Shown here: piece after piece, positions 29,755-42,123 of the stretch
Position numbering within the stretch: the stretch's first letter is position 1
Layout of the letters: each line of letters begins with the position of its first letter
NCBI RefSeq assembly: GCF_034008635.1
Contig: NZ_CP125378.1
Coordinates: 5,208,501 to 5,272,500 of the forward strand
Reading direction: 5' to 3'
Source: Pseudomonas sp. P8_229
GTDB taxonomy: Bacteria > Pseudomonadota > Gammaproteobacteria > Pseudomonadales > Pseudomonadaceae
Length of the DNA stretch: 64,000 nt
Position numbers and translations under genes: made by a program
Notes under the pieces: model-generated
What the model was told of the DNA's origin: nothing
What the model saw: the letters and a program-made list of their open reading frames with translations, nothing else
The model's database searches: none

Positions 29755-29831
29755 GCGCCCGTAGCTCAGCTGGATAGAGCATCCGCCTTCTAAGCGGATG
29801 GTCGCAGGTTCGAGTCCTGCCGGGTGCGCCA
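29755..29831 (+). tRNA. tRNA-Arg (UCU anticodon)
   Basis: A 77-nt cloverleaf with encoded CCA. Acceptor GCGCCCG / CGGGTGC, D arm GCTC..GAGC, anticodon loop CTTCTAA with TCT, T arm GCAGGTTCGAGTCCTGC. Confidence 0.96.
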
Positions 29832-29863
29832 TTAGGCAGCTTTGGCACAAGTAACGCGATATG

Positions 29864-29939
29864 GTGGGCGTAGCTCAGTTGGTAGAGCACGGGATTGTGA
29901 CTCCCGTTGTCGTGGGTTCGATCCCCATCGTCCACCCCA
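29864..29939 (+). tRNA. tRNA-His (GUG anticodon), copy 1
   Basis: A 76-nt cloverleaf with acceptor GTGGGCG / CGTCCAC, anticodon loop TTGTGAC with GTG, TTCGATC T loop and encoded CCA. A G precedes position 1, as needed for the His G-1 residue. Confidence 0.96.
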
Positions 29940-29946
29940 TATTTCG

Positions 29947-29978
29947 AAAGGCGCCAGATGTAACAGTCTGGCGCCTTT
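29947..29978 (+). terminator. Hairpin after tRNA-His copy 1
   Basis: AAAGGCGCCAGA / TCTGGCGCCTTT, 12-bp stem. The T run is short, so it may be a processing or partial terminator within the cluster. Confidence 0.7.
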
Positions 29979-29996
29979 GCTTTAAAAGCTTCATCT

Positions 29997-30081
29997 GCGG
30001 ATGTGGTGGAATTGGTAGACACACTGGATTTAGGTTCCAGCGCCGCGAGGCGTAAGAGTTCGAGTCTCTTCATCCGCACCA
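29997..30081 (+). tRNA. tRNA-Leu (UAG anticodon)
   Basis: An 85-nt class II tRNA with acceptor GCGGATG / CATCCGC, anticodon stem CTGGA/TCCAG with TAG, long variable arm CGCCGCGAGGCG and encoded CCA. Confidence 0.96.
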
Positions 30082-30157
30082 ATTAAAGCTTCATTCATGC
30101 CGCAGGCCTGGTGAGGTTCAGCAAAAAAGTCGAAAGGCTTGTTTGCACTGCAATATG

Positions 30158-30233
30158 GTGGGCGTAGCTCAGTTGGTAGAGCACGGGATTGTGACTCCCG
30201 TTGTCGTGGGTTCGATCCCCATCGTCCACCCCA
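30158..30233 (+). tRNA. tRNA-His (GUG anticodon), copy 2
   Basis: Identical to copy 1 over all 76 bases and followed by the same hairpin. The repeated unit includes flanking DNA on both sides. Confidence 0.96.
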
Positions 30234-39267: not shown

Positions 39268-39576
39268 AATATCCGTTGTTTCGGGTGTGGCGGCTGGCGG
39301 TTTCGCCCTTACGGCGAGTCACTTTTTCAGACGCCAAAAAGTAACCAAAACGCTGGGCCCCGGCGTACGGCCCTCGCCGTGGCTCGGGTTCCTTCGTTGC
39401 GGGGTTCATCCGGGGGCATCGCCTCCGGTTTGCTTCGCTGCACCTCCTCTCGATGTGTTTGGCTTCGCCAAACGGTCGCTGCGCTCCCACCCCCGGATAA
39501 ACCCCTCCACTCAGCCTGCCGATGGGGCCAGCAGATCAAGAGCTGCAGCCGAGCTTGCGCTCATCCTGTTGAGTGG
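39268..39576 (+). repeat. Interspersed ~300-bp intergenic repeat, copy A
   Basis: Closely similar to 58055-58370, same orientation. Shared blocks include CGCCCTTACGGCG, GTGGCTCGGGTTCCTTCG, GGGGCATCGCCTCCGG and CGGTCGCTGCGCTCCCACCC. Frames inside it (with a RNEGTRATARA-type string on the minus strand) change at indels between copies and are not genes. It is the intergenic content between ppiD and the IS110 element, together with one REP near 39612-39655. Confidence 0.88.
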
Positions 39577-39720
39577 GGCGGCTGCGCCGCGTGCGATGCA
39601 CACAGTTCAAAATTGTGGGAGCCAGCCAGCCTGCTGGCGATGGCGGCCTGACAGCCGACCACTCTCCAACTGCCTGCACCCAATCCCACTGTGGGAGATT
39701 CTATGGTTCATGCCTAGCCC

Positions 39721-40668
39721 CTAAACGGCTTTAGGTGAGTATTCGCTCTGGTTTTTCAACAGAGCAAATACCACCCGGGCAAGCTTGCGGGCTAGTGCGA
39801 CCAGTGCTTGGGTAGTGCTCAATCCGCGCTCTCTTAAAGCCTCATAAAACCCTTTCCACGCCGAGGTCCGGCTCGCCGCCATTGCAGCGTTGTGCAGCAA
39901 TCGACGTGCCTCTGAGTCGCCTCGTTTGGTCAGGCAGCGACGGCCTTTCTTTTTGCCTGAGTCCGATATGCGCAGATCCAGGCCCAGAAAGGCGATGAAA
40001 GCGTCGGCATTCCTGAAGTCCCCACGCTGAAAGGATGCGAGCAAGCGGGCGCCGGTCAACGTACCGATGCCTTCTACCTTCATGCAACGCTTGAGCTGAG
40101 CGCCTAAACCGGCTTCGTCTATCTGCGCCAGGATCGTTTTCTCCAGCAGGATTTCCAGTCTTTGCATGGCGTTTATCTGATTTTTGAAAACGGTTTTGAG
40201 CAATGGCTCATTCTCCCAGCTCTGCTTGAGGCTAACACGAGCCTGGACCAGAGCCGCACGGCGCCGGAAAAGACTGATGAGCCGGCAATACAAGGGCGAC
40301 GGCGGTGTCCAAGGGCGTAAGTGGTCCCCTTCGTTTGTCAGATAACGGGCCAGTAATCGGGCATCCAGCGCATCAGTTTTGGCGCGAACGTTCACACCTT
40401 TGCGGTAATGGCTGAGCTCATAACCGCCAACCATATAGATCACGCAACCATCGGCATACGCCAGATCAGCAAATTCCTGGTGATAGATATTGGTGGCTTC
40501 GATGGCGATTGCCACTGGCTTGGCAGCGGTTTTGAGCCATTTCTTGATCGCCGCTTTGGTATTGGAGATTGTCTCGAGCTGATCTGATTCGGCGTGATAA
40601 ATCACCAGTTCGTCCTTGGCGACATCAACCCCGATAATCGACTGAGTGGTAACGACGGGCATTGCCAT
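39721..40668 (-). CDS. IS110-family transposase/recombinase
   Basis: A 315-residue DEDD recombinase, apparently intact. The N-terminal RuvC-like domain has Asp in IIGVDVAKDELV, Glu in IAIEATNIYH and the Asp pair in RAKTDALDARLLARY. The C-terminal transposase_20 domain begins EGIGTLTGARLLA (helix-hairpin-helix) and contains FLGLDLRISDSGKKKG and LLHNAAMAASRTSAW, where the second catalytic residue (Ser) lies. GGAGGATTTCTC is the ribosome site. It acts with the bridge RNA encoded just upstream. Confidence 0.93.
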   Translation of the reverse strand: MAMPVVTTQSIIGVDVAKDELVIYHAESDQLETISNTKAAIKKWLKTAAKPVAIAIEATNIYHQEFADLAYADGCVIYMVGGYELSHYRKGVNVRAKTDALDARLLARYLTNEGDHLRPWTPPSPLYCRLISLFRRRAALVQARVSLKQSWENEPLLKTVFKNQINAMQRLEILLEKTILAQIDEAGLGAQLKRCMKVEGIGTLTGARLLASFQRGDFRNADAFIAFLGLDLRISDSGKKKGRRCLTKRGDSEARRLLHNAAMAASRTSAWKGFYEALRERGLSTTQALVALARKLARVVFALLKNQSEYSPKAV

Positions 40669-40699
40669 GAGAAATCCTCCGGGCTAAGGTTTGAACGCT

Positions 40700-40860
40700 T
40701 GAAGGGTTCACCCAGAGGCGCAGGCTTGTTCCTATCGTCGGTCTAGGCCAGATGCATTCTTTATCGGCGCTTGGGTGAAAGGAGGAGGGGTGAAATCTCC
40801 CACGGTCTGTACTGCGCTAACAGTCAGAATCGAGCCTTGTCCCTCCTCCTCCCTTCAAGT
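40700..40860 (-). ncRNA. Predicted IS110 bridge RNA
   Basis: Read 5' to 3' on the minus strand. Stem 1, GGAGGAGGG (40849-40841) with CCCTCCTCC (40789-40781), encloses the target loop. Its 5' side has AGGCTCG (40837-40831), identical to the left REP target; its 3' side has GTGGGAG (40803-40797), complementary to CT-CCCAC on the right of the target. Stem 2, TTCACCCA-x-GCGC with GCGC-x3-TGGGTGAA (40779-40707), encloses the donor loop: AAAGAAT (40762-40756) against the element end ATAGAAT, and ACAAG (40729-40725) complementary to the other end CTTGT. The exact ends of the RNA are estimated. Confidence 0.8.
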
Positions 40861-40926
40861 CCTACCATACAAGCGAGCCTGCTCGCGAAGGCGGCCTAGC
40901 AGCCACCCATCTCCTCACAATCCCAA

Positions 40927-42123
40927 TCACTCAAACCCATGCCCCCGCGCCCTGAGCGCCGCATACAAGGTCAATACCAGCAATCCCACCACAATCCACG
41001 GAAAGCCCCCAACCCCCAGATTCCCCAGCAACAATCCACCCGCCAGCCCACCCCCGGCAATCCCGACATTCCACAGCGTCACCAGCATCGACTGCGCTGT
41101 ATCGGCAGCCTTTCCAGCGGTTTTCGCCAAGGCAGTCTGCAGCAGCGAGGGCATCGCGCCGAACGCCAATCCCCATATGGCGACGGCGATGTATATCACT
41201 GGCGCCGATTCGCGCCACAGGCCCAGAGCGACGGCTGAGAGCATGAACAGCACCGTGCTGATGAGCACCAGTTCGCGCAGCCAGCGATCGATCAGGCTGC
41301 CGACGATCCACAGGCTCAGCACTGAGGCCAGGCCGAACACCAGCAGCACGCGATCAATATCGCCGCCCAGCCCCGACGGTTGCAGGAACGGGGCAATGTA
41401 GGTGTACAGCAGGTTGTGGGCGACCACGTAGGACAGGGTCACGAACAGCACCGATCGCACGCCGGGCAGGGTAAAGACCTGACGTAGGGGCAGGCGCTTT
41501 CCTGTCCGTTCGCCGGCAAAGTCCGGCACTTGCCAGCGCACCCAGATCACCAGCAGCAGCGTCAGCGCGGTCATGATGGCGAAGCTCAGGCGCCAACCCA
41601 CCAGGGTGCCGAGCAACGTGCCGGCCGGTATGCCCAGCGACAGTGCAAGCGGCGCCCCGAGCATGGCCACGGTGATCGCCCGGCCTTGCAGGTGCGGGGC
41701 AACCATGCGGCTCGCATAGCCGGCCAGTAGCGCCCACAACAGTCCGGCAAAGATCCCGGCGAGCAAGCGTGCGATCAAGGTCAGCCAGTACAGCTCCGAT
41801 AGGGCGGTGATGCTGTTGGCGATGGCAAAGCCGCCGATGGCGGACAACAACAATGGCCGACGACGCCAGCCTCGGGTGGCGATGGTCAGCGGGATGGCCG
41901 CCAGCATCGAGCCGATGGCGTACAGCGTCACCAGTTGCCCGATCAGCGCCTGTGAGACATTCAGGCCCGCGCTCATTTGCGGCAGCAGGCCGGCGGGCAT
42001 GGCTTCGGTCAGCACCGTGATGAAGCCGGCGGTGGCCAGGGCCAGCAGGGCGCCGAGGGGTAATCGTTCGCGCGCCTCGGCCGGTTGGGTGAGGTCTGCG
42101 GAGGTCAGTTGTGCATCATTCAT
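40927..42123 (-). CDS. MFS transporter (sugar efflux/DHA1 type)
   Basis: ATG 42123 gives 398 residues (MNDAQLTSADLTQ); the longer frame to 42549 runs back across the divergent LysR gene and is rejected. It has about twelve membrane helices, with TAGFITVLTEAMPAGLLPQMSAGLNVSQALIGQLVT as helix 1 and the R-x-W-R-R-R-P loop 2-3 motif. This is the pattern of sugar or drug exporters of the SotB/Cml type. It is divergent from a LysR gene that probably regulates it. Confidence 0.88.
   Translation of the reverse strand: MNDAQLTSADLTQPAEARERLPLGALLALATAGFITVLTEAMPAGLLPQMSAGLNVSQALIGQLVTLYAIGSMLAAIPLTIATRGWRRRPLLLSAIGGFAIANSITALSELYWLTLIARLLAGIFAGLLWALLAGYASRMVAPHLQGRAITVAMLGAPLALSLGIPAGTLLGTLVGWRLSFAIMTALTLLLVIWVRWQVPDFAGERTGKRLPLRQVFTLPGVRSVLFVTLSYVVAHNLLYTYIAPFLQPSGLGGDIDRVLLVFGLASVLSLWIVGSLIDRWLRELVLISTVLFMLSAVALGLWRESAPVIYIAVAIWGLAFGAMPSLLQTALAKTAGKAADTAQSMLVTLWNVGIAGGGLAGGLLLGNLGVGGFPWIVVGLLVLTLYAALRARGHGFE

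Follow-up and report, generated by a model that had tools for sequence, protein, structure and literature searches.

A REP-targeting IS110-group element of Pseudomonas with a predicted bridge RNA whose left guide covaries with its target

The bridge RNAs of IS110 elements and their reprogramming have been published (PMC11208160 and PMC11208158), and PMC11208160 reports that guide and target covary in a set of 5,511 target pairs. Pseudomonas IS110 elements specific to REPs are also known (PMC1525189), and, according to its legend, a figure of PMC11208160 shows an ISPpu10 bridge RNA. Natural redirection through changed guide bases is described in PMC11187229 for the pairs ISEc11/ISXne4 and ISEc21/ISMch6. 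Here, we compare with these systems an element found in a stretch of 64,000 nucleotides from Pseudomonas sp. P8_229 (the window).

The element, its insertion site and its recombinase

The element (Table 1) is very probably an autonomous insertion sequence of the IS110 group, with a bridge RNA encoded in its left end immediately before the recombinase gene. On the left, the flank ends in GCGAGCAGGCTCG and is followed by a core CT; on the right, the element ends in CATAGAAT, followed by a second core CT and then by CCCAC. The host genome holds 228 intact copies of AGGCTCGCTCCCAC and eight intact copies of the element, each 1,178 bp including both cores. The eight copies differ from that in the window at no more than four of 1,178 positions, have exact ends and intact reading frames, and stand in eight different flanks, all at the identical REP position with CT on both sides. 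A preliminary description had proposed an element aimed at REP palindromes, and a complete IS110-group element does sit inside a REP, as do its siblings. The same description called it active or recently active; of the two, it is recent activity that fits eight intact copies with so few differences. Nothing similar to the element was found among plasmid records.

Table 1. Positions of the element, its recombinase gene and the parts of its predicted bridge RNA in the window
Feature	Position	Strand	Basis
Whole IS110-group element, 1,178 bp with both CT cores	39696..40873	-	ends set by comparison of eight copies
Recombinase gene, 315 aa, DEDD_Tnp_IS110 and Transposase_20	39721..40668	-	ORF and Pfam
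Interrupted REP, left half (GCGAGCAGGCTCG and preceding base)	40874..40887	-	sequence and copy comparison
CT core dinucleotide, left end	40872..40873	-	sequence and copy comparison
CT core dinucleotide, right end	39696..39697	-	sequence and copy comparison
Interrupted REP, right half, CCCAC	39691..39695	-	sequence and copy comparison
Predicted bridge RNA unit, 162 nt, both closing-stem arms included	40698..40859	-	fold
Closing stem, 5' arm CTTGAAGGG, pairs with 40706-40698	40851..40859	-	fold
Target-binding stem-loop (predicted)	40780..40850	-	fold and relatives
Left target guide AGGCTCG, same as left target	40831..40837	-	sequence and relatives
Right target guide GTGGGAG, complement of CT-CCCAC	40797..40803	-	sequence and relatives
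AT after right guide, which may serve as handshake guide to the donor AT at positions 6-7	40795..40796	-	sequence; IS621 analogy
Donor-binding stem-loop (predicted)	40707..40779	-	fold
Left donor guide AAAGAAT, 6/7 with element end ATAGAAT	40756..40762	-	sequence
Right donor guide ACAAG, complement of CTTGT	40725..40729	-	sequence
Closing stem, 3' arm CCCTTCAAG	40698..40706	-	fold

The recombinase scores above the Pfam cut-off for both of its domains and is homologous to that of IS621 (E 4.7e-21); IS621 and ISCro4 are the only solved structures with a sequence match to it. Residues D11, E60, D102, D105 and S241 of IS621, whose role as catalytic residues is described in PMC11208158, align with D15, E57, D99, D102 and S237. 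A threonine nucleophile, T247, in place of the catalytic serine was considered and rejected, as counting along the IS621 alignment gives S237, in the sequence DSG. The DEDD recombinase, the Transposase_20 domain and the conserved serine place the element in the IS110 family. Within it, a long non-coding left end with the predicted RNA (40669-40871, 203 nt) and a short right end (39698-39720, 23 nt) point to the IS110 group and not to IS1111, the long left end holding the RNA being the distinction drawn in PMC11208160. The subterminal inverted repeat, CCATA/TATGG, is short as in the IS110 group: at 5 bp it is slightly above the reported 2-3 bp and not 7-17 bp long.

Elsewhere in the window, we noted a C4 antisense RNA (Rfam RF01695; 4109-4200, plus strand), a type whose usual home is in phages and prophages, and four consecutive tRNA genes (29755-30230, plus strand). 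Beside the element, at 39332-39359 on the plus strand, lies the sequence CGCCAAAAAGTAACCAAAACGCTGGGCC, present once in the window, which we take to resemble a common Pseudomonas intergenic sequence.

The predicted bridge RNA and its relatives

The preliminary description read two stem-loops upstream of the transposase, with guides in both, and every guide motif was found in place, base for base. Two points are amended. Both stem-loops sit within a 9-bp closing stem, so the fold-supported RNA unit extends from one arm of that stem to the other. The target guides stand as read, but AT follows the left guide where the target has the core CT, and thus the whole core can be paired by the right guide only. 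The dinucleotide at this place is AT in 97 of 115 rows from relatives, CA in 14 and CT in four. The minus strand of 40860-40695 has a predicted folding energy of -65.4 kcal/mol, compared with a mean of -49.3 (sd 4.2) for 200 shuffles, none of which was as good (z -3.81). The motif AGGCTCG with GTGGGAG downstream arose in 15 of 100,000 dinucleotide-preserving shuffles of the 166-nt stretch. At the Rfam gathering score there was no match at the locus, and no sigma-70-like promoter was found in 40500-41100.

The donor guides match the ends of the element at 6/7 and 5/5 positions. Since close relatives hardly vary in these ends and guides, the case for the donor part is this match itself. The AT 3' of the right target guide could pair with donor positions 6-7, in the manner of the handshake guide of IS621 described in PMC11208158.

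A lack of conserved structure among relatives had been named as one of two observations that would speak against a bridge RNA; instead, the fold is kept among relatives, and a covariance model matches seven other genomes of the class. The target-loop stem AGGAGGAGGG/CCCTCCTCCT is present in 28 of the 56 leaders scored (six further leaders were unscorable). Other leaders carry the compensated stems GGAGGGAC/GTCCCTCC, GGTGGGAC/GTCCCACC and GGGCGGGAC/GTCCCGCCC, the variants being A-T, T-A and C-G at one position. Nine rows in which the longest stem lies in another register (TGGTGGGA/TTCCACCA and the like) were not counted as support. RNAalifold credits little covariation to the target-loop stem because a plain alignment misplaces this stem between subgroups. 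By predicted folds, then, relatives conserve a two-loop structure of the IS621 type. One leader, that of L140 in G091 (minus strand, with the left end near L140:1431-1630), lacks the donor loop and has just the target loop; its closing stem leads directly into the target stem and then to the recombinase start. The guide of L140 fits its own left flank poorly (3/7).

Under strict filters, with which weak matches may be lost, the covariance model matches eight of 274 genomes of the class, the host included. In the host genome it recovers the same eight copies and nothing else. There are eight foreign matches, with a readable left end in seven. Guide and target agree at 6/7 positions in five of these (GAAGACG/GAAGGCG, AGCGCCG/GGCGCCG, CAAGTCG/CAAGACG, AGCTTCG/AGCTGCG and AAGCTCG/AACCTCG), at 5/7 in AGCGCCG/GGCACCG and at 3/7 in AAATCCG/GCTACCG (L159, from another family). 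For the most part, related RNAs in other families match their own, different sites. An extra CAAG/CTTG hairpin was seen by eye upstream of the RNA in some other-family relatives (L156, L157), and it could compete with the closing stem.

If the element works as IS621 does, the bridge RNA would be expressed and bound by the recombinase in a ribonucleoprotein, and the element would exit as a circle with the joined ends CCATAGAAT-CT-TGTATGG. Loop 2 would pair with the junction of these ends, and loop 1 with both strands of a REP, through the left guide AGGCTCG and through the right guide GTGGGAG over CT-CCCAC. Strand exchange beside the CT core would then split the REP and leave CT on both sides.

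Guide, target and choice of REP class

Relatives of the element were collected from 298 sampled genomes of the genus, 125 of which had a hit to the element query at E 0.001; among the short hits, many cover nothing but its ends. The 154 loci represent 127 distinct sites, and 115 sites in 58 distinct leaders yielded a readable left guide. From 141 profile matches 14 were dropped (12 duplicates or cut flanks, two cut heads), and from the 131 rows of the left-guide table 16 were dropped as duplicates or for want of a left flank or a readable guide.

Left guide and target agree at 5/7 positions or better in 107 of the 115 sites and at 7/7 in 67. Guide AGGCTCG lies at AGGCTCG in 36 of 49 sites, AAGCCCG at AAGCCCG in 12 of 17, AAGCTCG at AAGCTCG in 12 of 15 and AAGCCAG at AAGCCAG in three of six; AGCCGCC (2/2) and AAGCCGG (1/1) are found at their own sequences, and TAGTTCG, with right guide GTAGGAG at CTCCTAC, lies at AAGTTCG (2/2). 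The match averages 5.82/7 for the 17 guide types, compared with 4.13 (sd 0.24) when shuffled, and none of 20,000 shuffles was as high; for the 58 leaders it averages 6.03 compared with 4.99, both comparisons being made with descent ignored. In a protein tree of 59 rows, guides AAGCTCG, AAGCCCG and AAGCCAG are each found in parts that lie well apart, in most cases at targets that match; L037 pairs guide AAGCCCG with target AAGCTCG. In L027 and L107, both guide arms have changed together (CTTAGTTCG and GTAGGAG, at AAGTTCG-CT-CCTAC). Relatives with the same loops at unrelated targets had been named as the second observation that would speak against a bridge RNA; what relatives with changed guides have is correspondingly changed targets.

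Eight of the 115 rows match at fewer than 5/7 positions. Three of them (L126, L131, L132) may reflect a one-base register shift, and degeneration or an assembly edge affects L150 and one end of L069; this leaves L023, L032 and L140 as apparent exceptions. L023 (the same site as L075) is an otherwise normal copy with the usual guide and an unrelated left flank. That flank, CTCCCACATTTGGTAG in Pseudomonas fluorescens ISL-62 (G186), resembles the right flank of the same copy and not a REP arm, perhaps through rearrangement or off-target insertion. Elsewhere, at L029 (G066), two near-identical copies share one left flank and follow each other in direct order at a distance of about 1.35 kb.

For the right guide the evidence is thinner because most right targets are CTCCCAC. 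GTAGGAG occurs with CTCCTAC in L027/L107, L156 and L160; in L115, GTGGGAG faces CTCCTAC, and the right guide of L036/L114 shows one mismatch. Covariation of the kind known from IS621-type target guides is thus strong on the left, with few independent cases on the right. A wobble rule, by which G/U-tolerated mismatches would be favored, was not supported: in 30 distinct guide/target combinations (rows L041, L069, L140, L141 and L150 left out) there were 10 wobble-compatible transitions, nine other transitions and 19 transversions.

The guide's class is also preferred within single genomes. The host has 975 intact RRGCYCGCTCCCAC sites, of which 228 are AGGCTCG, 670 AAGCCCG, 62 AAGCTCG and, by subtraction, 15 others; six of its eight insertions are in the AGGCTCG class spelled by the guide (P 0.003), with one at AAGCTCG and one at AAGCCCG. 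Copies fitting one guide and target pattern make up 60 sites in 16 genomes, and three REP classes were counted in 14 of these. Five of the 60 sites were left out of the class test, having targets outside the three pooled classes or being a degenerate copy with another guide. Across the 14 genomes the guide's class holds 46 of 55 insertions compared with 31.4 expected (P about 1e-6, one per million simulations), where the pools are present intact sites and the insertions may be older than the pools. By guide, insertions in the own class number 18 of 27 for AGGCTCG (13.8 expected, P 0.03), 10 of 10 for AAGCTCG (4.7 expected) and 18 of 18 for AAGCCCG (12.8 expected), which suggests strict targeting by the two AAG guides and looser targeting by AGGCTCG. 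All six AGGCTCG-guide insertions in G205, G290 and G267 are at AAGCTCG. In G290 (L016, L100 and two further sites), where AAGCTCG is the commonest of the three counted classes with 1,132 sites, all four copies lie at AAGCTCG; the guide is AGGCTCG in three of them and AAGCTCG in the fourth. Both of the two copies in G094 have left and right guides that fit a local family, AAGTTCG-CT-CCTAC; this family accounts for 70 of 100 listed places, and 79 AAGCTCG-CT-CCCAC sites are also present.

In nine of 14 genomes the guide is that of the REP class most common in the host (permutation P 0.012, descent ignored). We are evenly divided on whether the bridge RNA of this Pseudomonas clade tracks host REP families by point changes, with elements re-specializing repeatedly, even inside one genome. 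On that account, and with the same balance of belief and doubt, the right guide would carry the head of the REP, which is GTGGGAG or, in G094 and similar hosts, GTAGGAG (both heads are tabulated in PMC2817692). The left guide would carry the arm of a single REP class, and the element would thereby be specialized to the repeat pool of its host. If this is true, REP pools and element guides together form a natural record of RNA-guided target evolution.

Other explanations of these observations fare less well than an element guided by its own RNA. The recombinase or a host REP-binding protein might read the REP palindrome itself, with the leader a regulatory 5' UTR and the guide match a relic or chance. 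Nearly all sites are indeed REPs, and the leader of the related ISPpu9 is described as regulating the translation of its transposase (PMC8450116). Such recognition is nevertheless very unlikely, as it predicts neither guide/target covariation nor class preference inside one genome; moreover, leader regulation and guiding are compatible. Nor would it lead one to expect insertions that fit the guide but lack the usual outer REP arm, an arm that is absent at some copies in G039 and G252 (exact guide match) and in G183 (6/7), although the loss of the arm may be a later rearrangement. Even less probable is a guide that is a passive copy of the flank, written into the leader from the local REP arm by recombination or imprecise excision. 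It would account for guides equal to local REP arms and for their agreement with the commonest host class, but not for copies that share one guide at several REP variants (6/1/1 in the host) or for two guides that occupy separate places in one conserved loop, each matching a different strand, as in IS621 (PMC11208160). That the element is dead or domesticated and was multiplied otherwise, for example inside duplicated segments, is consistent with no movement having been observed but hardly credible given the different flanks, exact ends, intact frames and near identity of its eight copies.

Comparison with described systems

Among the closest described systems is IS621 of E. coli, as presented in PMC11208160 and PMC11208158. 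The element studied here shares with it a homologous recombinase with the catalytic residues kept, a predicted RNA in a long left end with two loops, a left guide like the top strand and a right guide complementary to it, a CT core, a REP target and a short inverted repeat at the ends. It differs in its target bases, in having AT at the core positions of the left guide, and in its end repeat, CCATA/TATGG. Its two loops, furthermore, lie within a closing stem preceded by just 12 nt of element, which leaves no room for a 5' stem-loop as in IS621.

Compared by description (PMC1525189, PMC8450116), ISPpu10 and ISPpu9 of Pseudomonas putida are likewise IS110-family elements with one fixed REP position and 2-bp repeats; the P. 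putida REP heads given in PMC2817692 are GTAGGAG, whereas that of our element is GTGGGAG. The seekRNAs of IS1111 and IS110 elements (PMC11187229) resemble the present RNA in being leader RNAs that match both target strands and in their natural redirection. They are described with target matches only, and redirection appears as single pairs, compared with 17 guide types in one clade here, with REP pools from the same genomes as background.

In open-licence PMC papers we found no report of guides following host REP classes or of discrimination between REP classes within a genome. Because bridge RNAs, REP targeting and retargeting are all published, the element joins a known type, and it puts guide function to an unusually good test in nature. 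With their hundreds of sites in each genome, REP pools amount to a competition assay run by nature, in which genomes alone show how well a natural bridge RNA separates single-base variants and how guides evolve to new targets. This bears on the specificity and evolvability of bridge-RNA recombinases outside the laboratory.
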